Below are positions 6,041 through 54,609 of a DNA stretch of 64,000 nt, piece by piece. The stretch covers positions 310,001-374,000 of the forward strand of contig UGGS01000002.1 of the NCBI GenBank assembly GCA_900450595.1. The letters are read 5' to 3'. The stretch comes from [Flavobacterium] thermophilum. Lineage in GTDB: Bacteria; Bacillota; Bacilli; Bacillales; Anoxybacillaceae. Position numbers and translations under genes: made by a program. The notes beneath the pieces are model-generated. The model searched no databases and was not told the origin of the DNA. It worked only from the letters and a program-made list of their open reading frames with translations. Numbering within the stretch: the first letter of the stretch is position 1; every line of letters begins with the position of its first letter.

Positions 6041-7174
6041 ATGCAATTTCGCTTTACCGAAGAGCAGGAAATGATGCGGCAAATGGTGCGCGAGTTTGCC
6101 GCAGCGGAAATTGCCCCGTTTGTCGAGCGCATGGAGCAAGGGGAATTTCCGCGCCCGATTTTAAAGAAAATGGCGGAACTCGGCTTGATGGGGATCACGG
6201 TTCCCGAGAAGTACGGCGGTGCGGGCATGGATTTCATTTCCTACATTATCGCCATTCATGAAATTTCGAAAGTAAGCCCGACAGTCGGCGTCATTTTGTC
6301 GGTGCATACATCGGTCGGCACAAACCCGATTTTGTACTTCGGCACCGAAGAGCAGAAGCAAAAATACGTGACAAAGCTTGCCCAAGGCGAATATTTGGGG
6401 GCGTTTTGCCTCACCGAACCGAGCGCCGGCTCGGACGCAAAAAGCTTGAAGACAAAAGCGGTGCGCCGCGGCGATGTGTACGTCTTGAACGGATCGAAAA
6501 TTTTCATTACAAACGGCGGCGAAGCGGATACGTATATCGTATTCGCCCGCACGAATCCGGATGAAGCGGGCAGCCGCGGCATCTCGGCGTTCATCGTCGA
6601 AAAAGGAACGAAAGGGATGGCGATCGGCAAAGACGAGAAAAAAATGGGGCTGCACGGGTCGCGCACGGTGACGATTACGTTCGAGGATGCGGAAGTGCCG
6701 GCGGAAAACTTGCTTGGCCAGGAAGGAGAAGGGTTTAAAATCGCGATGGCGAACCTTGACGTCGGCCGAATCGGCATCGCCGCCCAGGCGCTCGGCATCG
6801 CCGAGGCAGCCGTCGAGCACGCCGTCGCCTATGCAAAAGAGCGGGTGCAATTTGGCAAGCCGATTGCCGAACAGCAAGGCGTCGCCTTTAAGCTCGCCGA
6901 TATGGCGACAGCAGCCGAGGCGGCGAAATGGCTCGTCTACCGCGCCGCCTGGCTGCGCGCCCAAGGGCTGCCGTGCAGCAAAGAGGCGTCGATGGCAAAG
7001 CTGTTCGCTTCACAAGCCGCCATGGACAACGCCATCGAAGCTGTGCAAGTGTTCGGCGGCAACGGCTATACGAAAGATTATCCCGTCGAGCGGCTGTTCC
7101 GCGATGCGAAAATTACGCAAATTTACGAAGGAACGAGCGAAATCCAACGCATCGTCATCAGCAAACATTTGTAA
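6041..7174 (+). CDS. mmgC: Acyl-CoA dehydrogenase (MmgC-like, short/branched chain)
   Basis: 377 residues from the ATG at 6041, after GAAGGGAGAGG. FAD-dependent alpha,beta-dehydrogenation of acyl-CoA, with electrons going to electron-transfer flavoprotein. Family motifs include [10 protein letters not shown] (flavin/substrate), [32 protein letters not shown], and the C-terminal [12 protein letters not shown] segment. An in-frame ATG at 5966 would add 25 unconserved residues and is rejected. The gene shares a 36-base identical stretch near its 3' end with the next dehydrogenase gene. A palindromic element begins at the base after its stop codon. Confidence 0.92.
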
Positions 7175-7420
7175 CTGTATAGATGCCATTTGAAGCTTTC
7201 ACATTTGCAGCTTTTACCGAGCATTGGATCGACTGTCGAGCGACCGAACAACGCCGCTTTCAGACCCATGTATGGGTCTGTGAAGCGAGCGGTTGTTCGG
7301 CCTCCCGTCACGCCTTGGCGTGACGGGGGCAAGCCTGTGGCTTGCCCTCGACAGTCGAAAAATAGATAAGCAACTTTTCCGTCAAGGATATGTGAAACTT
7401 TTTCGTTGCATCTATATAGG
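7175..7420. repeat. Palindromic MITE-like element able to form a four-way junction
   Basis: About 245 bases flanked by imperfect inverted repeats: TATAGATGC (7178-7186) with GCATCTATA (7408-7416), and TTTCACAT (7197-7204) with ATGTGAAA (7390-7397). Inside, CGACTGTCGAG (7230-7240) pairs with CTCGACAGTCG (7347-7357). This closing stem holds three hairpins: 7244-7300 (CCGAACAAC/GTTGTTCGG plus CAGACCCAT/ATGGGTCTG), 7304-7327 (CCCGTCACGCC/GGCGTGACGGG) and 7328-7346 (GGCAAGCC/GGCTTGCC). No coding potential is evident. The rest of the gap to acdA (7421-7503) holds a leader with a GGGGGAA site and nothing else I recognise. Family not recognised; it could be a non-autonomous mobile element or a structured RNA. 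Confidence 0.6.
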
Positions 7421-7503
7421 CATGTTGATGAACCAATCCAAACTAGATGCGAAAGCTCTATTCCTAGCTCTATTTGACTATACAATAACGGGGGAATGGA
7501 AAG

Positions 7504-8646
7504 ATGAACTTTCAACTAAGCGAAGAACATGAAATGCTGCGAAAAATGGTGCGCGAATTTGCTGAAAACGAAGTGGCGCCGACAGCCGCTGAACGCGATG
7601 AAGAAGAGCGGTTTGACCGCAGCATTTTCAACAAAATGGCGGAACTCGGCTTAACCGGCATTCCGTGGCCGGAAGAGTACGGCGGCATCGGCAGCGACTA
7701 TTTGGCGTATGTCATCGCCGTTGAGGAACTGTCGCGCGTCTGCGCTTCAACCGGGGTGACGCTCTCCGCCCACATTTCGCTCGCCAGCTGGCCGATTTAC
7801 AAGTTCGGCACGGAAGAGCAAAAGCAGAAGTATTTGCGCGCCTTGGCGACCGGGGAAAAGCTCGGGGCGTACGGGCTGTCCGAGCCGGGGGCCGGGTCTG
7901 ACGTCGCGTCGATGAAAACGCGCGCTGTAAAAGACGGCGACCATTACGTGTTAAACGGGTCGAAAGTATGGATCACCAACGGCGGCGAGGCGGAAATTTA
8001 CGTCGTCTTTGCCGTCACCGACCCGGAAAAGCGGCATAAAGGAATCAGCGCCTTTATCGTCGAGAAAGGGACGCCGGGCTTTTCAATCGGCAAAAAAGAA
8101 AAGAAACTCGGCATCCGTTCGTCGCCGACGACCGAGCTGATTTTCGAAGATTGCCGCATCCCGAAAGAAAACTTGCTCGGCCGAGAAGGAGAAGGGTTCA
8201 AAATCGCCATGATGACGCTTGACGGCGGCCGAAACGGCATTGCCGCCCAAGCGGTCGGCATCGCTCAAGGGGCGCTTGACGCCGCAGTCGATTACGCCAA
8301 GCAGCGCGTCCAGTTTGGCAAACCGATTGCCGAGCAGCAAGGCGTCGCCTTTAAACTCGCCGATATGGCGACGGCGATTGAAGCAGCGCGGCTCTTGACG
8401 TATCAAGCGGCATGGCTTGAGTCAAACGGCCTGCCGTACGGCAAAGCGTCGGCGATGGCGAAGTTGTTTGCCGGCGACACAGCCATGAAAGTGACCGTTG
8501 AGGCGGTGCAAATTTTCGGCGGCAACGGCTACACGAAAGACTATCCAGTTGAGCGGTTTATGCGCGATGCGAAAATTACGCAAATTTACGAAGGAACGCA
8601 AGAAATTCAGCGTCTCGTCATTTCGCGCATGTTGACGCGCGATTAA
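7504..8646 (+). CDS. acdA: Acyl-CoA dehydrogenase AcdA
   Basis: 380 residues starting at ATG 7504 after a GGGGGAA site. Same family and reaction as the preceding dehydrogenase. Motifs are [46 protein letters not shown] and [15 protein letters not shown]. In B. subtilis acdA lies between fadF and rpoE, so this copy is the likely positional ortholog, and the mmgABC-like genes are extra here. Substrate chain length cannot be told from the sequence; proximity to icmF suggests branched acyl-CoA is possible. Confidence 0.92.
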
Positions 8647-8823
8647 CGCCGCGCCTCTGTTCAGCGGCGCCGCGGCGGCTGGCCGCCGTTTGCGCACCGC
8701 CTGGCACATCGATGGACTGGCGAAGCCGTCCATTCCGTTTTGCGCTCTTAGCGCCCGCACCAACGGCGGGGGAGCGGGCGCCGCTTCGCCGCCAAACGGG
8801 GATAGGGGGGAGAGGAACCGGTC

Positions 8824-9456
8824 ATGAAAAAGCGGGAAGTAATCGCCTCAGTCAAAGACGAAAAGCTCGTGAAAAAACGGCGCAATGAGATGATCAAAGG
8901 CGCCATTTCGCTGTTTAAACAAAAAGGCTTCCACCAAACGACGACAAGGGAGATCGCCAAAGCGTCCGGATTTAGCATCGGCACGTTGTACGAGTACATC
9001 CGCAAGAAAGAAGACGTCCTCTATCTCGTGTGCGACCGCATTTACGACGAAGTGCGGGAGCGGACGGAACAAGACCTCGGTGCCCACCATGGCACGATCG
9101 AAGGGTTAAGGCGCGCCATTGCCCACTATTTCCGCGTTGTTGATGAACTCGATGATGAAGTGCTCGTCATGTATCAAGAAGTGAAAGCGCTAAGCAAAGA
9201 ATCGCTGCCGTATGTGTTGAATAAAGAACTCGATATGGCGGCGATTTTCGAACATATTTTGCGCGCATGCGTTGAGAGCGGGGCGTTGCAGCTTTCTGAA
9301 AGCGAAATCCGCCTGTTCGCCCACAACATCGTCGTTCTTGGGCAAATGTGGGCGTTCCGCCGTTGGGTGCTGCGGAAAATGTATACACTCGATGAATATA
9401 TCGAACTGCAAACCGAGTTTTTATTAAGGGGGATTATGGAGAAACAGCGAGTCTAA
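8824..9456 (+). CDS. TetR/AcrR-family transcriptional regulator next to icmF
   Basis: 210 residues. The N-terminal TetR helix-turn-helix is clear ([20 protein letters not shown], then [15 protein letters not shown], residues about 35-65). The C-terminal ligand domain is all-helical and not diagnostic. It ends 17 bases before icmF and follows the acyl-CoA dehydrogenases, so an acyl-CoA or related ligand is a reasonable inference. It resembles the FadR class in general build, but I cannot say that it is the protein that binds the two FadR-like operators in this window. Start ATG 8824 follows GGGGGGAGAGG. Confidence 0.85.
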
Positions 9457-9473
9457 AAGGGGGAGAAGAAACG

Positions 9474-12400
9474 ATGGCGCACATTTACCGTCCGAAGCAT
9501 CACGTCCGCTTTGTGACTGCATCGAGCTTGTTTGACGGCCATGACGCCTCAATCAACATTATGCGCCGCATTTTGCAGGCGAGCGGCGCCGAGGTCATCC
9601 ATTTGGGCCATAACCGTTCGGTCGAAGAAATCGTCAACGCCGCCATTCAAGAAGACGTGCAAGGCATTGCCGTCTCCTCGTACCAAGGCGGGCATATGGA
9701 GTTTTTTAAATATATGTATGACCTGCTTCAAGAGCGGGGCGCATCCCATATCCGCATTTACGGCGGCGGGGGCGGCGTCATCATCCCGCGCGAAATCAAG
9801 GAGCTGCACGAGTATGGCATCGCCCGCATTTTTTCGCCGGAAGACGGACGGCGTCTCGGCCTGCAAGGAATGATTAACGTCATGCTTGAAGAATGCGATT
9901 TTCCGACCGTCACGGCGGTGACCGATGAAATCGAGCGGCTGGCATCCGGCGATGTGCAAGCGGTCGCCCGGCTCATTACGCTGTGCGAGTACCGCGCCGA
10001 GGCGACGGATGAGGCGGCGGCCGCCGCTGAAGCAGCGATTGCGCAAGTGAAGACGATGGAAAAGCGTGTGCCGGTCCTCGGCATCACCGGCACGGGCGGG
10101 GCGGGGAAAAGTTCGCTCACCGATGAGCTCGTGCGCCGCTTTTTAAATGAAATTCCGGATATCAAAATCGCCATTTTGTCCGTCGACCCGACGAAACAAA
10201 AAACGGGCGGGGCGCTGTTAGGCGACCGGATCCGGATGAATGCCATCCATTCGCCGCGCGTCTATATGCGGAGCCTTGCGACGCGCCATTCCCGCTCTGA
10301 GCTGTCGCCGGCGATCCGCGACGCCATTTCGGTCGTCAAAGCGGCTGGTTTTGATCTCGTCATTGTCGAAACGAGCGGGATCGGCCAGGGCGATGCCGCC
10401 ATTACCGAAGTATGCGACGTTTCGATGTATGTGATGACAAGCGAATTCGGAGCGCCAACGCAGCTTGAGAAAATCGATATGATCGATTACGCCGATTTGA
10501 TCGCCATTAACAAGTTTGAACGCAAAGGCTCGGAAGATGCAAAACGGCAAGTGCAGAAGCAGTATCAACGAAGCCATCAGCTGTTTGACCGCGATCTATC
10601 GGAAATGCCGGTATACGGCACGATCGCCAGCCAGTTTAACGACCCGGGCACGAATACGCTTTTTGTCGCACTTGTCGATACGATCAACCGGAAAACGGGA
10701 ACGAACTGGAAGACGAATTTGAAAACCGTTGCCAACGTTGAAAAGCATAACGTCATCATCCCGAATGAGCGCCGCTACTATTTGCGCGAAATCGCGGAGA
10801 CGGTCCGCTCGTACCACCGCCGCGCCGAGCAGCAAGTCGAGGTGGCCCGACGCCTCTTCCAAATCGAAGGGGCCATCGAAGCGGCGAAGGAACGGGACGA
10901 AGCTGAAGACGTGATCCGCGCGCTCGAAACGCTCAAAGCCGATTACGAAGCGAAGCTGACGCCCGAATCGAAGCGCATTTTGGCGACATGGGAAGAGACG
11001 AAAGCGAAATATGCGGCGAAGACACTCGTGACAAAAGTGCGGGACAAAGAAATTGTCACCGAACTGACGACGAAAACGTTGTCCGGTTTGGACATTCCGA
11101 AAGTCGTCTTGCCGAAATTCAAAGACTACGGGGAAATTTTGCGCTGGGTGTATAAAGAAAACGTCCCCGGCTCGTTCCCGTATACAGCCGGCGTCTTCCC
11201 GTTCAAGCGCCAAGGCGAAGACCCGAAACGGCAATTTGCGGGCGAAGGGACGCCGGAGCGCACAAACCGCCGCTTCCACTATTTGTGCAAAGAAGACAAA
11301 GCGAAACGGCTCAGCACGGCGTTTGACTCGGTGACGCTTTACGGCGAAGACCCGGACTACCGGCCGGACATTTTCGGCAAGGTCGGCGAAAGCGGCGTCA
11401 GCGTTTGTACGCTCGATGACATGAAAAAACTGTACAAAGGATTTGACTTGTGCGATCCGCTCACCTCGGTGTCGATGACGATCAACGGCCCGGCCCCGAT
11501 TTTGCTGGCGATGTTTATGAACACGGCGATTGACCAGCAAGTCGAGAAAAAAGAGGCCGAGCTTGGCCGCCCGTTCACGCCGGAAGAGTACGAACAAGTG
11601 AAAGCGTATACGCTGCAAACGGTGCGCGGCACGGTGCAAGCCGATATTTTAAAAGAAGACCAAGGGCAAAATACGTGCATTTTCTCAACCGACTTTGCCT
11701 TGAAAATGATGGGCGACATTCAAGAGTATTTCATCAAGCACCGCGTCCGCAACTACTACTCGGTGTCGATCTCCGGCTACCATATCGCCGAAGCCGGCGC
11801 CAACCCGATTACGCAACTGGCGTTTACGCTTGCGAACGGCTTTACGTATGTCGAGTATTACTTGAGCCGCGGCATGCACATTGACGATTTTGCGCCGAAC
11901 TTGTCGTTTTTCTTCAGCAACGGCCTCGATCCGGAATATTCGGTCATCGGCCGCGTTGCGCGCCGCATTTGGGCGGTCGTCATGCGCGAAAAATACGGCG
12001 CCAACGAACGAAGCCAAAAACTGAAATACCATATTCAAACGTCCGGCCGTTCGCTGCACGCGCAAGAGATTGACTTTAACGACATTCGCACGACGCTGCA
12101 GGCGCTGTTGGCGATTTACGACAACTGCAACTCGCTGCACACGAACGCCTATGACGAAGCGATCACCACACCGACCGAGGAGTCGGTCCGGCGGGCGATG
12201 GCGATCCAGCTCATTATTACAAAAGAGTTTGGCTTGGCGAAAAACGAAAATCCGCTTCAAGGGTCGTTCATTATCGAAGAGCTGACCGACCTAGTGGAAG
12301 AAGCGGTGCTGCAAGAGTTCGAACGGTTGAACGACCGCGGCGGCGTGCTCGGGGCGATGGAGACGCAATATCAGCGCGGCAAAATTCAAGACGAGTCGCT

Positions 12401-31497: not shown

Positions 31498-32076
31498 ATG
31501 GACGCACGATTGACCGAATGGCAGCAGCAATGGCAAACGATTTTGCGCGAATTTCGCCGGCAGGCGCCGCTTGGCCGCGGCCAGATCGTGGTGGTCGGCT
31601 GCAGCACGAGCGAAGTGCTCGGTGAACGAATCGGCACCGCCGGGTCGACGGATGTGGCAGCCATGTTGTTTGCTGAACTTGATGCATGGCGGCGCGAAAC
31701 GGGGATCGAGCTCGCCTTTCAATGTTGCGAACATTTGAATCGGGCGCTCGTCGTCGAACGGGAAACGGCGCGTGTCCATGGCCTCGAGATCGTGTCCGTC
31801 ATCCCAGTGCCGCAAGCGGGCGGAGCGATGGCCGCGTATGCCTACCGGCAGCTGGAAGATCCCGTTGTTGTCGAAGCGGTCCGCGCCGATGCCGGCATCG
31901 ATATCGGGCATACGTTGATCGGCATGCATCTAAAACCGGTCGCCGTCCCAGTGCGTGTTTCGGTGAAACATGTCGGCCATGCGTACGTCACGCTGGCGAA
32001 GACGCGGCCAAAGCTGATCGGTGGCGCCCGCGCCGTCTATACGTTAGAAAACCCGAACAATTTCTGTTCTTTCTAA
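31498..32076 (+). CDS. ywlG: UPF0340/DUF436 protein YwlG
   Basis: 192 residues, the usual size of the YwlG family. Conserved segments [50 protein letters not shown] and [11 protein letters not shown] are present. Biochemical role unknown. Start ATG 31498 follows GAAGGAGGGGG. Sits between rpiB and glyA as in B. subtilis. Confidence 0.9.
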
Positions 32077-32096
32077 CAATTTCATTCATTTTTCCT

Positions 32097-32126
32097 TTGA
32101 ACTTGCCTAGCTGAAGCTGATAAAAT
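32097..32126 (+). promoter_or_regulatory. glyA promoter
   Basis: TTGAAC (32097-32102) and TAAAAT (32121-32126), 18-base spacer, giving a short leader of about 35 bases before glyA. No riboswitch is possible in that length. Confidence 0.6.
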
Positions 32127-32168
32127 AAAAACGAATATTCACTGATTTCGCATAAGGGGGAGCTATTG

Positions 32169-33407
32169 ATGAACTACTTGCCACAACAAGATCCGCAAGT
32201 GTTTGCGGCCATTGAGCAAGAGCGGAAACGGCAGCATGCCAAGATTGAGCTCATCGCCTCGGAAAACTTTGTCAGCCGCGCGGTGATGGAAGCGCAAGGA
32301 TCGGTGCTGACGAACAAATACGCGGAAGGCTATCCGGGCCGCCGCTATTATGGCGGCTGCGAGTACGTCGACATCGTCGAAGAGTTGGCGCGCGAGCGGG
32401 CGAAGCAATTGTTCGGGGCGGAGCATGCGAACGTCCAGCCGCATTCGGGGGCGCAGGCGAACATGGCCGTCTATTTCACCGTCCTGAAACCCGGCGACAC
32501 GGTGCTTGGCATGAATTTGTCGCACGGCGGCCATTTGACGCACGGCAGTCCAGTCAACTTCAGCGGTGTGCAATACAACTTTGTCGCATACGGCGTCGAC
32601 CCGGAAACCCATGTCATCGATTATGACGACGTGCGCGAGAAAGCGCGCCTTCATCGGCCGAAGCTGATCGTCGCCGGCGCGAGCGCCTATCCGCGCATTA
32701 TCGATTTCGCCAAATTCCGGGAAATCGCCGATGAAGTCGGCGCCTATTTAATGGTCGACATGGCCCATATTGCCGGTCTTGTTGCGGCAGGTCTCCATCC
32801 GAACCCGGTGCCGTACGCCCATTTCGTCACGACGACGACGCATAAAACGTTGCGCGGCCCGCGCGGCGGGATGATTTTATGCCAAGAACAGTTTGCGAAA
32901 CAAATCGATAAATCGATCTTCCCTGGCATTCAAGGCGGGCCGCTGATGCATGTCATTGCCGCCAAGGCGGTGGCGTTCGGCGAAGCGTTGCAGGACGACT
33001 TTAAAGCGTACGCGAAGCGCGTTGTCGATAACGCCAAACGGCTTGCCTCCGCCCTGCAAAACGAAGGGTTCACCCTCGTATCCGGCGGCACGGACAACCA
33101 TTTATTGCTTGTCGATTTGCGCCCGCAGCAGCTGACCGGAAAAACGGCGGAAAAAGTGTTGGATGAAGTTGGCATTACAGTGAATAAAAACACCATTCCG
33201 TACGATCCGGAAAGCCCGTTTGTCACGAGCGGCATCCGCATCGGCACGGCTGCGGTGACGACGCGCGGCTTCGGCCTCGAAGAAATGGACGAAATCGCCG
33301 CCATTATTGGTCTTGTGCTGAAAAACACGGACAATGAACAGGCGCTTGAAGAAGCGCGCCGACGCGTCGCGGCTTTAACGGAAAAATTCCCGCTCTACCA
33401 AGACTAA
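32169..33407 (+). CDS. glyA: Serine hydroxymethyltransferase
   Basis: 412 residues from ATG 32169, 7 bases after AAGGGGGAG. PLP enzyme converting serine and tetrahydrofolate to glycine and methylene-tetrahydrofolate. The PLP lysine is Lys226 in [20 protein letters not shown] and [18 protein letters not shown] are family motifs. Main source of one-carbon units. Confidence 0.97.
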
Positions 33408-33423
33408 AAATGGGGCAAATGAA

Positions 33424-33460
33424 AGCATACCGCCGCATCAGCCTGGCGGTATGCTTTTTT
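33424..33460 (+). terminator. Terminator after glyA
   Basis: AGCATACCGCC (33424-33434) pairs perfectly with GGCGGTATGCT (33445-33455), followed by a six-T run. Confidence 0.93.
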
Positions 33461-33474
33461 CATTCGTTCGCCAG

Positions 33475-33503
33475 TTGAACAGGCGCTCGTTTTCCAGTAG
33501 AAT
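33475..33503 (+). promoter_or_regulatory. upp promoter
   Basis: TTGAAC (33475-33480) and TAGAAT (33498-33503) with 17-base spacing, directly after the glyA terminator and about 40 bases before upp. Confidence 0.65.
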
Positions 33504-33542
33504 GTATAGAAGTGTACCGCATACATACGGAAGAGGAGATGA

Positions 33543-34175
<633 letters not shown>

Positions 34176-34533
34176 CGATTGCCGGAAAGACGCGCCCCGC
34201 TTCACGCGGGGCCCGCATTCCCTCAAGCGGAGGAAAAGGGCCATGTTCACGCCGCGGTTAAGCGCTTGCATTGAGAACTGAAACGATTGCAAACATACAG
34301 AATAATGAAAACGAATAGGCTAAAAATAAAATATACCATTATACATCATTTTTGTGAAAAGAAAATGAGAAATTGTCACAAATTATTAATATTTGCTCTG
34401 TGTGAATGATGTTTTATGTGGGAACACATTGACATTAACCAAGCGGTATTGTATGCTTACAAGGGGTAGATTGAGAAGGCTTTCACTGTCGGAAATGATC
34501 TCTGGTCTAAACGGGCGAGGTATGGTAACCATT
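34176..34533 (+). other. upp-atp intergenic region
   Basis: 358 bases. The hairpin GCCCCGC (34194-34200) with GCGGGGC (34206-34212) has no T-run. From about 34280 to 34400 the sequence turns strongly AT-rich, which contrasts with the surrounding GC-rich DNA and could act as UP-element DNA for the atp promoter at 34429. No gene recognised. Confidence 0.5.
34429..34457 (+). promoter_or_regulatory. atp operon promoter
   Basis: A perfect TTGACA (34429-34434) and TATGCT (34452-34457) with 17-base spacing, preceded by AT-rich DNA. Leader to atpZ about 70 bases. Confidence 0.75.
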
Positions 34534-34752
34534 ATGAAAAAAAATAACCGTCATCCTTTTCGGGCCATCGGCTTGATGTCAGCGATCACATCACAGCTAG
34601 TCGGCTGTACATTAGTTGGTTTATTTGGCGGCAGATGGGTTGACCGACAATTGGACAGTGAACCGCTTTTCCTTGTTATTGGTTTGTTGCTCGGCTTAGC
34701 AGCGGGAGTGTTCGCCACGCTGAAAACAATTCGGCGTTTTTTTGGGGAATAA
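34534..34752 (+). CDS. atpZ: AtpZ/AtpI-family small membrane protein
   Basis: 72 residues, two membrane helices joined by a short loop (IGLMSAITSQLVGCTLVGLFGGRWVDRQL and LFLVIGLLLGLAAGVFATL). This is the AtpZ type found ahead of atpI, which together with AtpI has been linked to Mg/Ca uptake or assembly support for the ATP synthase. ATG 34534 starts the conserved part; ATG 34522 is an alternative. First gene of the atp operon. Confidence 0.75.
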   Translation: MKKNNRHPFRAIGLMSAITSQLVGCTLVGLFGGRWVDRQLDSEPLFLVIGLLLGLAAGVFATLKTIRRFFGE

Positions 34753-34758
34753 GAAGCA

Positions 34759-35115
34759 ATGATTGATAGGATCATAAAACGAATACAAAAGCAATCGTCG
34801 GTGCTAATGGTGGGTTATGCGGTAGGATGGATATTGACCAGTTATGAAGCGTGGTTTTTTAGTTTGCTCATTGGAACAGCAACAGGGCTGTACAGCATTC
34901 GCTTGCTGGCCCGGCGTGTCATAAAAGCAGGAGAAGCGATGGCCGAGGGACGGCGCCCTCCTTCGCTTGGGACCATGATTCGATTTGCGCTGGCTGCCGC
35001 CGTTGCGCTGTTTGTGTCCCGGTATCCCCAACATTTGTCCGTTATGCCGGTCGTCATCGGCTTGGCCACCCCATATATCCTATTGGTAGCAAATCATTTT
35101 TTACATAATGACTAA
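34759..35115 (+). CDS. atpI: ATP synthase accessory protein AtpI
   Basis: 118 residues, four hydrophobic segments, subunit I family. Not part of the final enzyme; in thermophilic Bacillus it acts as a chaperone for c-ring assembly. Seven bases after atpZ and just before atpB, the standard place. Confidence 0.85.
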   Translation: MIDRIIKRIQKQSSVLMVGYAVGWILTSYEAWFFSLLIGTATGLYSIRLLARRVIKAGEAMAEGRRPPSLGTMIRFALAAAVALFVSRYPQHLSVMPVVIGLATPYILLVANHFLHND

Positions 35116-35139
35116 TCAGCTGTGTAGAAAGCGAGGTGA

Positions 35140-35856
<717 letters not shown>

Positions 35857-35888
35857 TGATAATATTTTTTTAAAATATCAACTTTTGA

Positions 35889-36122
<234 letters not shown>

Positions 36123-41892: not shown

Positions 41893-41921
41893 CTGACACG
41901 GCTGGATATAAATGTTATAAT
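41893..41921 (+). promoter_or_regulatory. nuo operon promoter
   Basis: CTGACA (41893-41898) and perfect TATAAT (41916-41921) with 17-base spacing. The promoter looks intact although the operon behind it is broken. Confidence 0.7.
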
Positions 41922-41994
41922 GAAATTGAATGAATTATTGAAAAATTTCACCATTAACACCATACGTATGTAGTAAACCGGAAGGGGGGCGAGC

Positions 41995-43111
41995 GTGTTG
42001 AGCAACGTCTATGCGAACAGTTATTTGATTATTTTCGTCTTCCTTTGCCTCGGGGTGTTGCTGCCGATCGGGGCGCTTGCGGTTGGACGCTTGTTGCGGC
42101 CGCATGTGCTCGAAGACGCGTATATCAACCGGCTGGCGAAAGACGTGCCGACGCTTGTTGTTCCCAGGGCTGCAATACACGCAAATCATCCCATACACCG
42201 ACCGGATGGACTACTTGTCGGCGATGACGAACAACTATGTGCTTTGCCATGCGGTCGAAACGATGATGGGCATTGAAGTGCCGGAGCGGGCCGAGTATTT
42301 GCGCGTTCTTGCGATGGAGCTCGGGCGGATCGCCAGCCACCTCGTTTGGTGGGGGACGTATTTGCTCGATCTTGGTGCGACAAGCCCGTTTTTGTATGCA
42401 TTCCGCGAACGCGAAATGATTATTAATCTATTAAATGAGCTGTCCGGGGCGCGGCTGACGTTCAACTACATGCGCATCGGCGGCGTTAAATGGGACGCGC
42501 CGGACGGCTGGATCGACAAAGTGAAGCAGTTTGTCCCGTACATGCGGGAGAAATTGGCCGGCTACCACGACCTCGTCACCGGCAATGAAATTTTCCGCGA
42601 GCGCGTAACAGGCGTCGGGCGGTATACGAAAGAAGAAGCGATCAGCTATTCGCTCAGCGGCGTCAACTTGCGGTCGACCGGCGTCAAATGGGATTTGCGC
42701 AAAGATGAACCGTATTCAATCTATGACCGCTTTGAGTTTGATGTGCCGGTGCGCGAGGGCGGCGACTGCCTTGCCCGCTATGAATGCCGGATGGCGGAAA
42801 TTGAGCAGTCGCTTCGCATCATCGAGCAGGCGTGCGAGCAATTTCCGCCTGAGGGGCCGATCATGGGAAAAGTGCCCCGCATCATAAAAGCGCCGCCGGG
42901 TGAGACGTTCGTCCGCATCGAGGCGCCGCGCGGCGAGATCGGCTGCTATATTGCGAGCGACGGCAAAAAGGAGCCGTACCGCCTCAAATTCCGGCGTCCG
43001 TCGTTTTACAATCTGCAAATACTCCCGAAGCTGCTCAAAGGGCAAAACTTGGCCAATGTCATTGCCATTCTCGGGTCGATTGACATTGTGCTCGGGGAGG
43101 TCGATGGATGA
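41995..43111 (+). pseudogene. nuoD: Collapsed nuoA-nuoC-nuoD composite (complex I), nuoB missing
   Basis: Starts at GTG 41995 after GAAGGGGGG with the NuoA N-terminus (MLSNVYANSYLIIFVF, about 37 residues, first membrane helix only). It then runs in frame into about 19 residues that read as NuoC (VLEDAYINRLAKDVPTLVV, 42106-42162). The frame then changes, and from about 42167 NuoD resumes at GLQYTQIIPYTDRMDYLSAM and continues to the normal end. Lost: most of NuoA, all of NuoB with its N2 iron-sulfur cluster, nearly all of NuoC, and about 50 residues of NuoD including the GPQHPSTHG quinone-site motif. Two deletions plus a frameshift are the simplest reading. The long frame beginning at 42077 contains the NuoD part but has no proper start. 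Confidence 0.85.
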
Positions 43112-44109
43112 TGGAGCAATGGCTTGAATCGACGCCAAGTTGGTCGAACATCGCCCTGTTTTTCGGGCTTGGGGCGTTGCTTTTGGCGGTCGTGCTCGGG
43201 TTTGTCACATACGGCATTTTGGCCGAGCGGAAAGTGATGGGGTTTATGCAAGGGCGCATCGGCCCGAACCAGGTCGGCGGCCGCTTCGGACTGTTGCAAA
43301 CCGTTGCCGATGTGTTGAAGCTGCTTTTGAAAGAGGATACGATCCCGAAAGCAGCCGACCGTCCGCTGTACGTGTTGGCGCCGATCATCGCCTTTGTGCC
43401 GTCGTTTATGGTGCTGGCGGTATTGCCGTTTACCGATTCGTTCCGGTTCGCCGATATCGGCGTCGGCCTTCTGTATTATATCGCTGTCTCCGGCTTGACG
43501 ACCATCGGCGTTGTCGCCGGCGGCTGGGCGTCGAACAACAAATACGCTCTGCTTGGCGGCATGCGCGCGGCGGCGCAAATGATTTCCTATGAGATTCCGC
43601 TCGTCATGTCAGCGCTTGGCGTCGTGCTTTTGGCTGGAAGCATGAATTTAGTCGACATCGTTGCGGTGCAAAAAGACGTCTGGTTCATTTTCGCCCAACC
43701 GCTCGCCTTTTTGATTTTCTTTGTGGCAGCGGTGGCGGAATTGAACCGGACGCCGTTTGACTTGCCGGAGGCGGAGTCCGAGCTTGTCGCAGGGTTTCAT
43801 GTTGAATATTCGGGATTCCGATGGGCGTTTTTCATGCTTGCCGAGTATGTGTACATGTTTGCCATGGCGGCGCTGATCACGATTTTGTTTCTCGGCGGCT
43901 GGCATCCGGTCGCGTTTCTCGGCTGGATTCCCGGAGCGGTTTGGTTTGCGTTGAAATTTTGTGCAGTTGTTTTCGTCCTCATTTGGTTTCGGGCGACGTT
44001 TCCGCGCGTGCGCGCCGACCAGCTGATGGAGTTCGCCTGGAAAGTGTTGCTTCCGCTTTCGCTCGTCAACATTGTGCTGACGGCGCTGATCAAGTCGTGG
44101 TTTTTCTAA
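43108..44109 (+). CDS. nuoH: Complex I subunit NuoH
   Basis: 333 residues, about eight membrane helices. Overlaps the nuoD stop by ATGA. Conserved quinone-chamber motifs ERKVMGFMQGRIGPNQVG, AELNRTPFDLPEAESELVAGF and EYSGFRWAFFMLAEY are intact. Normally contacts NuoB and NuoD, which are absent or broken here. A MITE-like element begins two bases after its stop. Confidence 0.93.
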   Translation: MMEQWLESTPSWSNIALFFGLGALLLAVVLGFVTYGILAERKVMGFMQGRIGPNQVGGRFGLLQTVADVLKLLLKEDTIPKAADRPLYVLAPIIAFVPSFMVLAVLPFTDSFRFADIGVGLLYYIAVSGLTTIGVVAGGWASNNKYALLGGMRAAAQMISYEIPLVMSALGVVLLAGSMNLVDIVAVQKDVWFIFAQPLAFLIFFVAAVAELNRTPFDLPEAESELVAGFHVEYSGFRWAFFMLAEYVYMFAMAALITILFLGGWHPVAFLGWIPGAVWFALKFCAVVFVLIWFRATFPRVRADQLMEFAWKVLLPLSLVNIVLTALIKSWFF

Positions 44110-44110
44110 G

Positions 44111-44240
44111 AGGTTGGTGATTTAGTACAAAATACTGCTAGCTCCACCTGTTTCTCAATTAGAGAAAAACTGTGGAATCAGTCTTCTTTTTTGGCGAAAT
44201 GCCGTTGATTTGCTCGTAACAGCCGTTTTTCACCGGCCTT
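44111..44240. repeat. MITE-like palindromic element, copy A (nuoH-nuoI gap)
   Basis: About 130 bases bounded by imperfect inverted ends: AGGTTGGTGATTTA (44111-44124) and GTTTTTCACCGGCCTT (44225-44240, reverse complement AAGGCCGGTGAAAAAC). Shares both ends, length, and an internal CTGTTTCTCAA-type core with the copy at 51989-52117. No coding capacity. It widens the normally tight nuoH-nuoI junction to 261 bases. Confidence 0.5.
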
Positions 44241-44370
44241 CTAAATCGAAAAGCGGACGAGGCCCAATCCGGCTTAGGCAAGGAGGCAGCCGCGCTGATG
44301 TGCATGGCCGCCCTGCGCTTTAGGGGACGGTTATGCCGGAACGCCATGTTCCCATGAGAGGGGGAGACCG

Positions 44371-44790
44371 ATGATCGGATTAATGAAAGGATTGGTGTAT
44401 ACGTTAAAAGAGTTGACGCGTGAAAAAGTGACGTACGATTACCCGCACGAACCGCTCCCGCTCCCGGACCGGTTTCGCGGCATTCAAAAATTTTATCCGG
44501 AAAAATGCATCGTCTGCAACCAATGCGTGAACATTTGCCCGACCGAATGCATCCAGCTGACTGGGAAGAAGCATCCGGATCCGACGAAAAAAGGAAAAGT
44601 GATTGAGACGTACAATATTAACTTCGAAATTTGCATTTTGTGCGACTTATGCACTGAAGTGTGTCCGACGGAAGCGATCGTCATGACAAACAACTTCGAG
44701 CTCGCCGAATACAGCCGCGATGCGTTGTACAAAGATTTGGCCTGGCTGGATGAAAACGATACGAACGTAAGAAGGGAGAATAAGCCGTGA
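44371..44790 (+). CDS. nuoI: Complex I subunit NuoI (8Fe-8S ferredoxin-like)
   Basis: 139 residues. Two 4Fe-4S motifs CIVCNQCVNICPTECI and CILCDLCTEVCPTEAI carry clusters N6a and N6b, which pass electrons to the missing NuoB cluster. Reading frame intact. ATG 44371 after AGAGGGGGAG. Confidence 0.94.
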   Translation: MIGLMKGLVYTLKELTREKVTYDYPHEPLPLPDRFRGIQKFYPEKCIVCNQCVNICPTECIQLTGKKHPDPTKKGKVIETYNINFEICILCDLCTEVCPTEAIVMTNNFELAEYSRDALYKDLAWLDENDTNVRRENKP

Positions 44791-45308
44791 GCGGAACCGA
44801 CATCGCCTTTTTCCTGCTCGCCCTCGCGGCGATTGCCGGCGGGGTGACGATGCTCCAGCTGACAAACGTCGTCCATATGGTCATCGCCCTCGTCATGACA
44901 TTTGTAGGCATTGCCGGGCTGTACGTGCTGTTGTCCGCCGAATTTGTCGCTGTTGTGCAAGTGCTTATCTATTCCGGAGCCATCACGATCATCATGCTGT
45001 TTGCCATCATGTTGACGCGCCATCACACAGACGAAAGGGAGCGCCAAACGACCGGCGGCGTCTGGCATCGGGCTGTTGCCGCCATCTCGGTTATCGCCTT
45101 TGGCCTTGCCGTCTACTTCGGCATCCGCCAGCTCGACTTCGGCGCTGACGGCAGCGCGCTTTCGGGCGACAACGCGAAGGCGATCGGCAAGTCGCTTTAC
45201 TCGTATTATACGATTCCGTTTGAAATCGTGTCCGTCATTTTGCTCGTCGCCTTGGTCGGGGCGATTGTGCTGGCGAAAAAAGACGGCAAGGAGGCGGGGG
45301 ACGAATGA
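44787..45308 (+). CDS. nuoJ: Complex I subunit NuoJ
   Basis: 173 residues, five membrane helices. GTG 44787 overlaps nuoI by 4 bases. Conserved [21 protein letters not shown]. Frame intact. Confidence 0.92.
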
Positions 45309-45610
45309 CGTTATCGGCTTACTTGGCGTTGGCGCTCATCTTGTTTTGCATCGGCTTGTATGGGGCGCTGACGAAGCGAAATACGGTCATTGTGCTCATT
45401 TGTATTGAACTGATGTTAAACGCGGTCAACCTCAATTTCGTGGCTTTTGCCAAATACGGCCCCCATCCCGGCGTTCACGGGCATGTATTCGCGCTGTTTG
45501 CGATCGCCGTGGCGGCGGCGGAAGCAGCCGTTGGCTTGGCGGCGCTCATCGCTTTTTACCGCAACCGGAAGACGGTTCAAGTCGATGAAGCCAATTCATT
45601 GAAACATTAG
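45305..45610 (+). CDS. nuoK: Complex I subunit NuoK
   Basis: 101 residues, three membrane helices with the conserved membrane glutamates in [11 protein letters not shown] and [14 protein letters not shown]. Overlaps nuoJ by 4 bases. Frame intact. Confidence 0.94.
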
Positions 45611-45628
45611 AAAAGGGGATGGGGAACG

Positions 45629-47482
45629 ATGATGAACCTAGCTTGGGTTGTGCCGCTCTTCCCGCTTTGTTCATTTGTCTTGCTGCTGTTGTTTGGGCGG
45701 AAATGGAAGAAAGCGAGCGCCTATGTCGGCATCGCGGCTACGTTGCTGTCGATGCTGGCGGCCATTGGTGTGCTCGCCGACCGCCTCGGCGGGACGACGC
45801 ATGAGGTGAATTGGACATGGATGACCGTCGGCGACGTGACGCTCACAGCCGGGGTTTCCATTACGGCGTTAAACGCCTGGATGCTCGCAGTCGTTGCGGT
45901 TGTCAGCTGGCTCGTCCATGTGTATTCGCAAGGGTATATGGCGGGAGACGAGCGGTTTTCGACCTTTTATGCGTACTTAGGGCTGTTTACGTTTGCGATG
46001 CTTGGGCTTGTGCTGTCGCCGAACTTGCTGCAGGCGTATATGTTTTGGGAGCTCGTCGGGCTCGGCTCGTTTTTGCTGATCGGTTTCTATTATGACAAAG
46101 AAGAAGCGAAGGCAGCAGCGAAAAAAGCGTTCATTATGACCCGCGTCGGCGATGTCGGTTTTTTCATCGGCATGCTGCTCTTGTTTTGGCAAACGAAAAG
46201 CTTCGATTACGACGACATTTTCCGCGCTGTCGGCGACGGCACGCTGTCGCCGGGAATGACAACCGTTGCGGCCATCTTGATTTTTATCGGCGCCATCGGC
46301 AAGTCCGGGCAGTTTCCGCTCCATACGTGGCTCCCGGATGCGATGGAAGGGCCGACGCCGGTGTCGGCGCTCATCCACGCTGCGACGATGGTGGCGGCCG
46401 GGGTGTACCTCGTCGCCGCGTTGTTTCCGCTTTATGAAGCAAGCGAGGCAGCCATGATGACCGTCGCGGTGGTCGGCGGGGTGACGGCCATTTTTGCCGC
46501 GACGATCGGCTTGGTGCAGACGGACATTAAACGTGTCCTCGCCTATTCGACGATCAGCCAGCTCGGCTATATGATGCTTGCGCTCGGCTCGGGCAGTTAT
46601 GTCGCCGCCATCTTCCATTTGACGACGCATGCGTTCTTTAAAGCGCTCCTCTTTTTGGCCGCCGGGAGCGTCATTCATGCCGTCCGTACGCAAAACATCG
46701 AGGAAATGGGCGGACTTTGGCAGCGGCTGCCATGGACCGCGCCGCTATTCCTCATTGGGGCGCTGTCGATCAGCGGGGTTCCGCTGTTTGCCGGCTTTTT
46801 CAGCAAGGACGAAATTTTGGCCGCCGCTTGGACGAACGGGCCGCGCCTCCTCTTTTGGCTGGCGGTCGCCGCGGCGCTGTTGACGTCATTTTACATGTTC
46901 CGGCTCTTTTTCCTCGTCTTTGCCGGCAAAGCGCGGCATCATGAGGATGCTCATGAAGCGCCGGCCTCGATGGTGGCGCCAATGCTTGTGCTCGGCGTGC
47001 TGTCGGTCGCTTCTGGGTACATTCAAACGCCGTGGTTTGGCTCGTTCCTTGGCGAATGGTTGACGGACGGATCCTACCATCATGAAGCGGCGCCAGGATG
47101 GATCGCGGTGGTGGCGACCATTGTGTCGCTCGCCGGGATTTTCCTTGCCTGGCTCATGTATGGGAAGCGGGCAGTGCCGCGCGATTGGCTGTCGGCGCGC
47201 GCTCCGCACACGTATGAATTGTTGCGCCATCGCTATTACATCGATGAATTATATCGGTGGACGATTGTGGCGTTCGTGTCATTCGTTAGCCGCCTGTTGG
47301 CGTATGTCGACCGCTTCCTTGTTGAAGGGCTCGCCCGGCTTGCCGCCGGCATTGTCGGCGCGGCCGCCTCGGCTGGGTCGCGCGGGCAAAACGGGCAGGC
47401 GCAGACGTATGGGGCGGTGACGGTGGCCGGATTGGCGATTTTGGTCGTCATTTTCGCCTTAACAGGGGGGTACTGGCTATGA
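45629..47482 (+). CDS. nuoL: Complex I subunit NuoL (antiporter-like)
   Basis: 617 residues, about 16 membrane helices, proton-pumping arm. Conserved MFWELVGLGSFLLIGFYY, PLHTWLPDAMEGPTPVSALIHAATMV and DIKRVLAYSTISQLGYM. Frame intact to the end, where its stop overlaps the nuoM start. Confidence 0.94.
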   Translation: MMNLAWVVPLFPLCSFVLLLLFGRKWKKASAYVGIAATLLSMLAAIGVLADRLGGTTHEVNWTWMTVGDVTLTAGVSITALNAWMLAVVAVVSWLVHVYSQGYMAGDERFSTFYAYLGLFTFAMLGLVLSPNLLQAYMFWELVGLGSFLLIGFYYDKEEAKAAAKKAFIMTRVGDVGFFIGMLLLFWQTKSFDYDDIFRAVGDGTLSPGMTTVAAILIFIGAIGKSGQFPLHTWLPDAMEGPTPVSALIHAATMVAAGVYLVAALFPLYEASEAAMMTVAVVGGVTAIFAATIGLVQTDIKRVLAYSTISQLGYMMLALGSGSYVAAIFHLTTHAFFKALLFLAAGSVIHAVRTQNIEEMGGLWQRLPWTAPLFLIGALSISGVPLFAGFFSKDEILAAAWTNGPRLLFWLAVAAALLTSFYMFRLFFLVFAGKARHHEDAHEAPASMVAPMLVLGVLSVASGYIQTPWFGSFLGEWLTDGSYHHEAAPGWIAVVATIVSLAGIFLAWLMYGKRAVPRDWLSARAPHTYELLRHRYYIDELYRWTIVAFVSFVSRLLAYVDRFLVEGLARLAAGIVGAAASAGSRGQNGQAQTYGAVTVAGLAILVVIFALTGGYWL

Positions 47483-48993
47483 TGTTTTTATCGCTGCTCG
47501 TCTTTTCGCCGCTGTTAGGCATCATGTTGCTGCTGTTTGTCCGCAAAACGGATGAACGAATGATTCAATGGCTCGGAACGGCCGCCACCGTACCGCCGCT
47601 CATTTTGGCGTTGTTTGCTTTCATTCAGTCTGGACGCGGGTTTCGCCTTGAGTAGCTCGATGAGGCGCACGATTGGGTGCGGCTTGCCAACCTTCCGTTT
47701 TTAACAGATGCAGCGTATGTGATCCGCTATGAGCTCGGCATCGATGGGCTGTCGCTTGTCTTTATCGTTCTGACCGCGGTGTTGGCGACTTTGGCGGCTG
47801 CCGCGTCCTTGTTGGTCAAAGCGGAGAAAAAAGGATATTTTATGTGGCTGCTCGCATTGGAGATCGGCATGCTCGGCGTATTTGCAGCCGCCAATTTCAT
47901 CTGGTTTTTCCTCTTCCTCGAAGTGACGCTTGTCGCCATGTTTTTACTTGTCGGCAAGTGGGGCGGGTTTGAGCGCGAGCGGGCGGCGTACAGCTACTTG
48001 GTGTATAACGGGTTCGGCTCGGCGCTGCTGCTTGTTGTGATCGCCGTCCTTGTCGCCCGCACCGGGACCGCAAACTTCGCGTTGCTCCGTGAGATGTTAC
48101 ATAACCCGGTCGCTCAAGGGCAGCTGATCGCCCCGCTCACCGAAGAGGGGCGGCATTGGCTGCTTGGCGGGCTGTTGTTGGCGTTTGCCGTCAAGCTGCC
48201 GGCCGTTCCGCTTCACCGCTGGCTCATTCGCGTGCACGTCGAAGCGCCGCCGCCGGTCGTCATGCTTCACGCCGGGGTGCTGTTGAAGATTGCGGCGTAC
48301 GGGATGATCCGCTTCGGGATCGGCTTGTTTCCGGACGAGTTTCGCACGTTTGCTGGCGCCATCGCGGTGGTGGGAGTCATAAACGTATTGTACGGCGCGC
48401 TGTTGGCGCTCCGGCAGAGCGAGTTGAAACATGTGCTCGCCTATTCAAGCATCGCCCACGCCGGCTACTTGCTCGCCGGGGTTGCCGCGATGTCGTGGGC
48501 GATGATCGATTCGCTTTGGATTTACTTGCTCGCTTATGTGTTTATGAACATCGGGGCGTTTGCCATCGTTGCGCATATCGCGCACCAGACCGGCTCCGAT
48601 GATTTCGATGGGCTGTCCGGCTTGTACCGCCATCGCCCGCTGCTCGCTGCAGCCCTCGGGCTGTTCTTGCTCTCGCTCGCCGGCATTCCGGGGACGGCCG
48701 GCTTTATCGCCAAGCTCTATTTGTTCATCGGCCTTGTCGTCACCGAGCCGGGCCATTACGTGCTCGCGGCGGTGATGGCGGTGACGACGGTGATCTCGTA
48801 TGTATACTACTTCAATTTGCTCGTTCAACTCTTTTTCCGTCCGGCTTCCCTCGCGCCGCTTGGCCGGCTGCCGGCCGGGCTGTCGGCCTCTGTCGTCGTA
48901 TGCGCGCTCGGAACGCTGGTGATCGGCTGGATGCCGGGGCTTGCCTACGATGTGCTCGCCCAATTTGGGCATTTTGGCGATTTTTTGCCGTAA
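47479..48993 (+). pseudogene. nuoM: nuoM-nuoN chimera with in-frame amber codon
   Basis: Begins at ATG 47479, overlapping nuoL. Codon 59 is TAG (47653-47655), between FRLE and LDEAHDWVRLA; a CAG to TAG change would explain it. The same frame continues for the whole gene. Up to about 48400 it is NuoM (LGIDGLSLVF, WFFLFLEVTLVAMFLLVG, HVEAPPPVVMLHAGVLLK). After the shared LKHVLAYSS motif (48424-48453) it is NuoN (IAHAGYLLAG, YLLAYVFMNIGAFAIVA, LFLLSLAGIPGTAGFIAKLYLF, VISYVYYF). Total 504 codons, the length of one subunit, so the NuoM C-half and NuoN N-half are deleted. Confidence 0.85.
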
Positions 48994-49003
48994 CGGTACA
49001 ATA

Positions 49004-49032
49004 AGGGGAGAGGGAACCCTCTCCTCTTTTTT
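49004..49032 (+). terminator. nuo operon terminator
   Basis: GGGGAGAGGG pairs with CCCTCTCC, followed by TCTTTTTT. Confidence 0.88.
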
Positions 49033-49108
49033 GTTGAACAGAGGGGAAACCGCCTCATCAAGAGGATGGGGGACGTTTGCATGGTTTAGGAGGAGGTGGA
49101 GCGCGGTG

Positions 49109-52117: not shown

Positions 52118-52169
52118 TTTAGGCGGAGTGCGAAACGCGCTCATGAAGGTTTTGGCTGGAAAGAAAACT

Positions 52170-52200
52170 GTCATATATACTTGTCCGAGCCCATAACTAT
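52170..52200 (+). promoter_or_regulatory. Probable sigma-E promoter of spoIID
   Basis: GTCATAT (52170-52176) and CATAACTAT (52192-52200), 15-base spacer, close to the mother-cell sigma-E pattern (KMATATT / CATACAHT). spoIID is a known sigma-E gene. Confidence 0.55.
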
Positions 52201-52279
52201 AGTAACGAACCGAAGCCAACGCAGGCATTCATTCGCGATGTCCGCTTGTGCTTGGAAAATGCATATTGGGGGCTCGGCT

Positions 52280-53311
52280 ATGGTGAAACGACTGAAACCG
52301 GTGATGGCGCTCGCTCTCTCGCTGTTTGTCGCCATCCTCGTCATTCCGACGGCGCTCGTTCTTCCATTTTATGACGGGAAGGTGGCCAAATTGGCCGAAC
52401 AACTGCACAAGCAAGAACAAGTCCAACGGTCGCAGGCAGCCGAAGGACCGTCCATCGACGTGGCGGTCTATCGAAGCAAAGAACAACGCGTCGAACATAT
52501 TCCCCTCGAGCAATACGTCATCGGCGTCGTTGCGGCGGAAATGCCGGCCGAATTTGAACTCGAGGCATTAAAGGCGCAAGCGTTGACGGCAAGAACGTAC
52601 ATCGTGAAGCAATTGCTCGCCAACCAGCCGTTTCGCCTGCCAAAAGGAGCGAATGTGACCGATACGGTGGCTCATCAAGTCTATTACAGCGATGACGAAC
52701 TGCGAAAACTATGGGGCAGCGACTACGATTGGAAAATGAAAAAAGTGACAAAAGCGGTGATGGACACGCAAGGGCAAATTTTGACATACAACAATGAGCC
52801 GATCGAGGCGCTGTTTTTTTCGACAAGCAACGGCTATACGGAAAATTCGGAAGCCTATTGGCAAAGCGATTTTCCGTATTTAAAAAGTGTCGCCAGCCCA
52901 TGGGACAAACAATCCCCGAAGTTTTACCAGCGAAAAACGATGCCAGTGGCGGAATTCGAGCGAAGACTGGGGGTCGAACTGCCCGCTGACGGCTCAGTCG
53001 GCGTCATTGTATCGCGCACTCCCGGCCGCCGCGTCGGCGAAGTGAAGATTGGCGGCAAGACGTTTACGGGCCGCGATGTGCGCGAACGGCTCGGATTGCC
53101 GTCGAGTGATTTCACCTGGGTGCGCAACGGAGATGACATCATCATTACGACGAAAGGCTACGGCCATGGCGTCGGCATGAGCCAATACGGCGCCAATTTT
53201 ATGGCCAAAGAAGGGAAAACGTACGCTGACATCGTCAAATATTATTACCGCGGCGTTCATATTTCGTCGGCGACGGCGTTTTTAAACAAATTGACCGCGA
53301 AAAATGGATGA
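52280..53311 (+). CDS. spoIID: SpoIID, engulfment lytic transglycosylase
   Basis: 343 residues from ATG 52280. Membrane anchor at residues 8-29, then the SpoIID domain: VIGVVAAEMPAEFELEALKAQALTARTYI (with the catalytic Glu region), TSNGYTENSEAYW and the C-terminal GYGHGVGMSQYGAN. Cleaves denuded glycan strands during engulfment together with SpoIIM and SpoIIP. In-frame codons from 52010 are upstream of the promoter. Confidence 0.95.
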   Translation: MVKRLKPVMALALSLFVAILVIPTALVLPFYDGKVAKLAEQLHKQEQVQRSQAAEGPSIDVAVYRSKEQRVEHIPLEQYVIGVVAAEMPAEFELEALKAQALTARTYIVKQLLANQPFRLPKGANVTDTVAHQVYYSDDELRKLWGSDYDWKMKKVTKAVMDTQGQILTYNNEPIEALFFSTSNGYTENSEAYWQSDFPYLKSVASPWDKQSPKFYQRKTMPVAEFERRLGVELPADGSVGVIVSRTPGRRVGEVKIGGKTFTGRDVRERLGLPSSDFTWVRNGDDIIITTKGYGHGVGMSQYGANFMAKEGKTYADIVKYYYRGVHISSATAFLNKLTAKNG

Positions 53312-53338
53312 ACCGGGGTTCTGCCGCCCCGGTTTTCT
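53311..53338 (+). terminator. Terminator after spoIID
   Basis: AACCGGGG (53311-53318) with CCCCGGTT (53327-53334), T-rich end. Confidence 0.85.
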
Positions 53339-53397
53339 GTCAAATGTTCGGGGCAAACGGCAGGGAGACGCCCCTCGCCATGCGCCCCTCATTTTTT

Positions 53398-53427
53398 GCA
53401 TAAAATCTAGTCGAATGTCAAAAAATA
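53398..53427 (+). promoter_or_regulatory. Possible sigma-F promoter of spoIIQ
   Basis: GCATA (53398-53402) and GTCAAAAAATA (53417-53427), 14-base spacer, resembling forespore promoters (GYWTA / GGNNANNMT). B. subtilis spoIIQ is sigma-F dependent. The first G of the -10 pair is not matched. Confidence 0.4.
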
Positions 53428-53497
53428 AGTGAAAAATTATTTTCTATGTGTATATCTTTTCCTCTTTCTGTTCAAAATGGTTGCTGAGGTGATGAAC

Positions 53498-54385
53498 ATG
53501 AGAGAGGAACAAAAACAATCGTCGCTGAAGCGTCTGTTCCGCAAACGTTGGGTATTTCCGGCGATCTATTTATCGTCTGCCGCATTAATCGTCGCTGGTG
53601 CGCTTTGGTTCCAATTGGGCAAAGAGGAGAATACGGGCAGAGACAACGTGGCGAAAAACGGCACCGCCCAGCAAGAAAACCCGGCTGTTCCGGTCAATGA
53701 AACGGTCGAAAACATCGCGATGCCTGTGCTTGACCCGAACGCCGTGCAAGTCAAAACACCGTTCTATGATGACAACGCATCAGAACAAGAACAGGAAGCA
53801 GCCCTCGTCTTTTACGATCATACGTACCATCCGAACCAAGGGATCGACCTTGTGCGCCAAGACGGCAAAACGTTTGACGTTACGGCTGCATTAAGCGGCA
53901 CGGTAACGAAAGCGGAAAAAGACCCGATTTTAGGCTACGTTGTGGAAATCAATCATGAACAAGGGGTCACGACCGTCTATCAATCGCTTGCCGACGTGAA
54001 AGTGGAAGCAGGCGACACGGTGAAACAAGGTGAAGTGATCGGCAAGGCAGGGCAAAGCGAATTCAACAAAGAAGCCGGCATCCACGTCCACTTTGAAATT
54101 CGCAAAGACGGCCGGGCGGTCAACCCGATCGATTATGTCGACAAACCGTTGACGGCTTTGACTGACAAAGCGGAAGACAAAACGGGAACCGATCGTGCCG
54201 CCACGAGCAAAGAAAAAGAATTGATGCCAAGTGACGAAACAGCGCCGACAGACGAAAACCCAGCGAATGAACAACCATCGGCTGACGACCATTCGACGAC
54301 GCCAAGCGACAACAATCAAGACGAAAACAACGACGCTTCATCCTACAAAACGCCAGACGCCTCGATCGGCATGGCGAGAGCTTGA
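53498..54385 (+). CDS. spoIIQ: SpoIIQ, forespore side of the engulfment/feeding-tube complex
   Basis: 295 residues from ATG 53498, 7 bases after GAGGTG; ATG 53492 is too close. MREEQKQSSLKRLFRKRWVF then one membrane helix (residues about 22-40) and an extracytoplasmic LytM (M23) domain. The position of the first zinc-ligand His (HxGxD) reads NQGID, while HVHFE of the second motif is kept, so the fold is probably non-catalytic, as in B. subtilis. A long acidic Asp/Glu/Asn/Thr tail follows. Pairs with SpoIIIAH. Confidence 0.93.
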   Translation: MREEQKQSSLKRLFRKRWVFPAIYLSSAALIVAGALWFQLGKEENTGRDNVAKNGTAQQENPAVPVNETVENIAMPVLDPNAVQVKTPFYDDNASEQEQEAALVFYDHTYHPNQGIDLVRQDGKTFDVTAALSGTVTKAEKDPILGYVVEINHEQGVTTVYQSLADVKVEAGDTVKQGEVIGKAGQSEFNKEAGIHVHFEIRKDGRAVNPIDYVDKPLTALTDKAEDKTGTDRAATSKEKELMPSDETAPTDENPANEQPSADDHSTTPSDNNQDENNDASSYKTPDASIGMARA

Positions 54386-54428
54386 TCGACAAGGCGTCGA
54401 GCAAGAGGAAACGAAAAACGCGACGAAA

Positions 54429-54474
54429 AGGCCTGTCCGTTTGCCAAGACAAGACAAGCGGGCGGGTCTTTTTG
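54429..54474 (+). terminator. Terminator after spoIIQ
   Basis: Arms 54429-54443 and 54455-54469 pair over 15 positions with four G-T wobbles, followed by TTTTT. Confidence 0.65.
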
Positions 54475-54609
54475 CTTTGCCGCTTCTAAAGTCAGACGTG
54501 GGAAAAACGGCAGCCAAAAAAGCTCTTCACCATAAGATAAAAAACGTTTTTCATGATAGGTGCCCAAAAAGTCATGGCTATTTTTTGTTCGATCGGGAGG
54601 GACGATGTT

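Follow-up and report, generated by a model that had tools for sequence, protein, structure and literature searches.

A composite of three complex I genes without nuoB

Within a 64,000-nt stretch of the [Flavobacterium] thermophilum genome (the window), pieces of the complex I genes nuoA, nuoC and nuoD are run together between positions 41995 and 43111, and nuoB is missing. How did this composite arise, and can the genes that are left still form an enzyme? We consider it highly probable that the locus is the remnant of an 11-subunit complex I operon, inactivated by several separate deletions in a loss that was recent, stepwise and variable between strains.

An earlier sequence-only reading had described a NuoA start, a NuoC island and NuoD in this interval. 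Mapping against relatives, with G004 as the ruler for nuoA and G010 (taken to be G. zalihae NBRC 101842) as the ruler for nuoC and nuoD, bore out these parts and their coordinates:

41995..42109, + strand: truncated NuoA, residues 1-38, with a GTG start (tblastn, NuoA 1-41 of 122)
42104..42109, + strand: J1, the nuoA::nuoC junction (alignment to G004 nuoA and G010 nuoC)
42104..42166, + strand: NuoC island of 63 bp, identical to G010 nuoC
42166..42166, + strand: J2, the nuoC::nuoD junction, a 1-bp overlap with a frameshift (alignment to relatives; the same junction, residue for residue, in protein record P0122)
42166..43111, + strand: NuoD residues 54-367 (alignment to relatives; the start of G010 NuoD, with HPSTHG and GYLHRGTEK, is lost)

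The open reading frame 41995-42276 runs from NuoA residues 1-38 through LEDAYINRLAKDVPTLVV, which is NuoC in frame, into out-of-frame NuoD; the NuoD frame itself begins at about residue 54, ends at 43111 and reaches the last of the 367 residues. The frame change that had been placed near 42163 is real, its exact site being J2 at 42166, and the reported absence of the NuoD start was likewise confirmed.

The alignment to relatives that had been proposed for both junctions gave a microhomology of 6 bp at J1 and an overlap of 1 bp at J2. Positions 42080-42109 are identical to G004 nuoA, and the sequences part beyond 42109; the 6 bp common to nuoA and nuoC are ATGTGC, and 11 of 12 positions match over 42098-42109. 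When nuoA and nuoC were joined at random 200,000 times, at least 6 bp were shared in 0.22% and at least 11 of 12 positions matched in 0.009%, whereas at least 1 bp was shared in 44% of random joins of nuoC and nuoD. J1 therefore looks microhomology-mediated on this comparison and J2 does not. By G010 coordinates, J1 removed about 1451 bp (the end of nuoA, the whole of nuoB and the start of nuoC), a size that is approximate because the length of the Ala/Lys-rich NuoC linker varies greatly, and J2 removed 515 bp (the end of nuoC and the start of nuoD).

No second copy, and an operon that is usually whole in the genus

The deletion of nuoB claimed by the sequence-only reading holds for the whole genome: the gene is gone from the locus, and a Pfam profile search returned 0 matches to NuoB (PF01058) anywhere. 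The same search gave no match in the genome to NuoA (PF00507) or NuoC (PF00329), so that the intact nuoABCD copy for which that reading had allowed was not found. In the tblastn comparison NuoC, too, had no match.

The absence of nuoB is not the normal state of the genus. NuoB is present in 13 of 14 genus genomes, the exception being the genome of the window (G000), and NuoD is also present in 13 of 14, the exception here being G004. When the G010 proteins were compared with 10 genus relatives (a set with G006 and G009 outside it), 8 matched all 11 subunits without a stop; the breaks in these eight fall in the variable NuoC linker only, and NuoN of G012 is cut at the end of the stretch fetched. 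The other two relatives are G004, whose operon is broken, and G002, which has interrupted L and M. The G002 assembly looks error-prone, because a second copy of the region carries two stops in nuoB. We note that the nuo region of G002 lies near both ends of one contig (C1, 800-4900 and 3548800-3553000), which may reflect a circular overlap left untrimmed, with sequencing errors, and that its nuoM is missing ~167 bp.

The window follows the complex I operon nuoABCDHIJKLMN in gene order and content, with nuoH directly after nuoD as in G010, but differs from it in having truncated nuoA, nuoC and nuoD, no nuoB, a fused nuoM/nuoN and a stop codon in nuoM.

Downstream genes and a nuoM::nuoN fusion

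The remainder of the operon extends over the following features:

43108..44109, + strand: nuoH, intact frame, full-length match
44371..44790, + strand: nuoI, intact frame, full-length match
44787..45308, + strand: nuoJ, intact frame, full-length match
45305..45610, + strand: nuoK, intact frame, full-length match
45629..47482, + strand: nuoL, intact frame, with mosaic identity to relatives (79% to G004 in 47000-47300)
47479..48993, + strand: nuoM::nuoN hybrid gene, by alignment; its 504-aa counterpart is an open frame in G004
47653..47655, + strand: TAG nonsense codon within the nuoM part; the 10 relatives compared (a set without G002, G006 and G009) all have CGG or CAG
48433..48447, + strand: J3, the nuoM/nuoN crossover interval, common to G004

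The membrane subunits H, J and K and the ferredoxin-like NuoI are thus all present with full-length matches, and the antiporter-like set L, M and N is incomplete, being reduced to nuoL and one M::N hybrid with a stop codon. J3 is bounded by 48433, the last base specific to nuoM, and 48447, the first specific to nuoN; the exceptions are a lone nuoN-like site at 48414 and several sites that resemble neither gene. Positions 48404-48449 align to nuoM and also to nuoN of relatives; about 1.56 kb is lost by G010 coordinates, and the fusion is in frame. Judged by these alignments, J3 is a homeologous crossover between the paralogues nuoM and nuoN. The genome has five matches to PF00361, three of them outside the operon (C1:2079088, C1:2075963 and C2:867117).

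These downstream breaks go beyond the sequence-only reading, and so does the finding that strains of seemingly one species carry different lesions. As a side observation, the gap between nuoH and nuoI (44110-44370, ~260 bp) has a similar length in G010 and is much shorter in G011 and G007; it can be aligned throughout in G010, G013 and G008, with an identity of just 74% in the bin at 44000.

Different lesions in related strains

The sister genome G004 carries J3 and has neither J1 nor J2. Its nuoA is whole and its nuoB extends to residue 169 of 177, where a deletion of its own, from nuoB to nuoL, begins: nuoB is followed by ~240 bp of filler and then by nuoL from residue 341, and none of NuoC, D, H, I, J and K has a match in the operon region. 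This filler has no match in the nuo region of either G010 or G011 and is perhaps the scar of a mobile element. Most of the aligned flanking sequence of the window shows 97-99% identity to G004; patches at 31498-36087 and 52159-54478 are divergent, and part of the flanks does not align to G004 at the corresponding place. A database protein named G. stearothermophilus (P0001, 9 member sequences) equals 502 of the 504 residues of the G004 M::N hybrid, and we infer that the window strain and G004 both belong to Geobacillus stearothermophilus.

Two further records under this name bear on the haplotypes. P0122 consists of a NuoC start, with a much shortened linker, followed by 56 residues that span J2, run to its end and are all identical to the window. 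Since it carries J2 behind the start of NuoC, P0122 has J2 without J1, as read from its protein record. P0031 is an intact NuoN that shows few differences from the window hybrid beyond the crossover, and its record shares with that of P0122 the same longest contig size (99,037), which suggests that the two proteins lie on one contig and that the P0122 strain therefore probably lacks J3. Full-length NuoC is also found under the G. stearothermophilus label (P0144 and P0147), so that the presence of complex I cannot be read from the species label alone; species labels in this genus can, moreover, be wrong.

Selection on the remnant genes

Private changes in nuoD-nuoL numbered 13 nonsynonymous (N) to 37 synonymous (S) on the window branch, against 115 N to 288 S for the other 10 genomes taken together (Fisher p 0.87); pooling four of these ten (G007, G011, G001 and G003) gave p 0.72. 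By this comparison with 10 genomes there is no sign of relaxed selection on the window branch, a pattern that is consistent with recent inactivation without proving it. Between the window and G004, the M::N hybrid shows 11 N and 9 S changes, which puts N slightly below the neutral expectation (p 0.05 with a computed N-site fraction of 0.744, p 0.03 with an assumed fraction of 0.76), and it does not differ from control genes (Fisher p 0.17). The control omega (0.199) was taken from ORFs picked mechanically, with doubtful antisense ones among them, a set that leaves out ORFs with pS of at least 0.12 and ORFs wholly within 41900-49100. These tests gave no signal of neutral decay of the remnant genes.

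Alternative explanations

It could be asked whether J1 and J2 were produced together in one complex event, by template switching at a stalled replication fork. The two junctions are only 57 bp apart, and just ahead of each stands an exact 11-bp direct repeat, GACGCTTGTTG, at 42086-42096 (ending 8 bp before J1) and 42150-42160 (ending 6 bp before J2), possibly by chance. However, the nuoA, nuoC and nuoD pieces keep their ancestral operon order and orientation, and P0122 has J2 in the absence of J1; we therefore regard a single event as improbable. Of the two mechanisms named in the sequence-only reading, stepwise decay by two separate deletions is thus favoured over a template switch. An assembly error is the least credible explanation of all. 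The assembly consists of five contigs, and the junctions were read from the assembled sequence, but the locus lies inside a 1.14-Mb contig, J2 and J3 each recur in a second genome or database record, and NuoA, NuoB and NuoC domains are found nowhere in the assembly.

A different possibility is that the genes from the truncated nuoD to nuoM::nuoN still form a reduced but working membrane machine, for instance an ion translocator. In its favour, the frames of nuoH, I, J, K and L are uninterrupted, amino-acid changes in them are not in excess, and the M::N hybrid is a full-length 504-aa frame in G004. Against this, the window hybrid is interrupted by a nonsense codon, the lack of NuoC, D, H, I, J and K matches in the G004 operon region leaves the hybrid there without such partners, and NuoB is absent, a subunit on which electron transfer depends in known complex I and in related hydrogenases. 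Such a machine seems to us very unlikely, if somewhat less so than an assembly error.

Probable order of events and probable recombination between strains

We propose that the operon was instead broken by separate deletions, as follows. J2 would have joined a cut nuoC to nuoD, almost without microhomology; J1 would then have taken nuoB and the adjoining parts of nuoA and nuoC by means of its microhomology, leaving the NuoC island behind; and a homeologous crossover between the paralogues nuoM and nuoN would have produced the fusion J3. The order J2 before J1 is the one most simply suggested by P0122, a single protein record, whose pattern supports two steps with J2 first; the same pattern would result if an allele carrying both junctions had recombined with an intact upstream half.

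The alleles occur apart: J3 without J2 in G004, J2 probably without J3 in the P0122 strain, and both in the window. No single tree accommodates these three states without recombination or a repeated event, and J2 and J3 were most likely brought together in the window strain by recombination between strains. From 47300 on, the window is 97-100% identical to G004 per bin, falling to 79% in 47000-47300 and returning to 97% in the bin at 46700; the 79% bin fits a recombination boundary upstream of J3, at the edge of a patch. We also considered whether nuoD-nuoH had come from a G. zalihae-like donor through homology-facilitated illegitimate recombination, which the data do not show: in the five 300-bp bins of 42200-43699 the window is 92-98% identical to G010, and G013 and G008 reach 92-97% as well.

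Probable loss of function and NADH oxidation

The window strain has lost NuoB (cluster N2), the greater part of NuoA and NuoC, and NuoD up to residue 53. With these parts gone, the remaining genes should not form an enzyme, and from what is established about complex I, it should pass no electrons to quinone. The description of the locus as a dead composite still stands, with NuoA, NuoC and NuoD incomplete and NuoB absent.

A relative of type-II NADH dehydrogenase presumably carries NADH oxidation in this strain, making the loss of complex I tolerable. The candidate has 409 aa, and its best match in the PDB is 4nwz (E 4.5e-172), which we take to be NDH-2 of Caldalkalibacillus thermarum; it has no NCBIfam match over the cut-off, and its assignment rests on the PDB match. 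Geobacillus uses menaquinone. For a naphthoquinone-dependent E. coli, one study describes loss of nuoB without an effect on growth and loss of ndh with an effect (PMC12510636). This result makes tolerance of complex I loss plausible. A survey of complex I in prokaryotes places Bacillota among the phyla mostly lacking Nuo subunits (PMC12361115). It may even be that complex I has been lost in parallel under selection in Geobacillus stearothermophilus, through separate loss-of-function alleles of differing origin that recombination between strains reshuffles, because the menaquinone chain of this thermophile runs as well or better through NDH-2; we offer this only as a speculation, and an unlikely one.

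Significance of the loss alleles

The loss itself is ordinary pseudogenisation, with an unusually clear apparent intermediate. Bacterial operons decay through microhomology-mediated deletion and through crossover between paralogues, and the present case resembles this general process in the short homology at J1, the homeology at J3 and the loss of function; it differs in that several haplotypes of lesions in a single operon, including an apparent intermediate, occur in what appears to be one species. Its value lies in this intermediate and in the different loss alleles that exist side by side. The loss of complex I is usually viewed as presence or absence between species, and here there are seemingly at least three lesion haplotypes within one, so that a strain-by-strain study could trace the order, the mechanism and a possible advantage of the loss. 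Among the open-access papers listed for complex I loss or nuo genes in Geobacillus and for nuoM/nuoN fusion, none described the present case. For annotation, the hybrid calls for caution, as nuoM::nuoN is called 'subunit M' in the database.

Two minor observations concern the window away from the operon. Positions 1246-10206 are absent at the corresponding place in G004, where the flanks lie ~130 bp apart. An element of ~245 bp at 7174-7419, which had no Rfam match at the gathering score, is present in several to many copies in the six Geobacillus genomes searched, with 81-96% identity among the matches listed.
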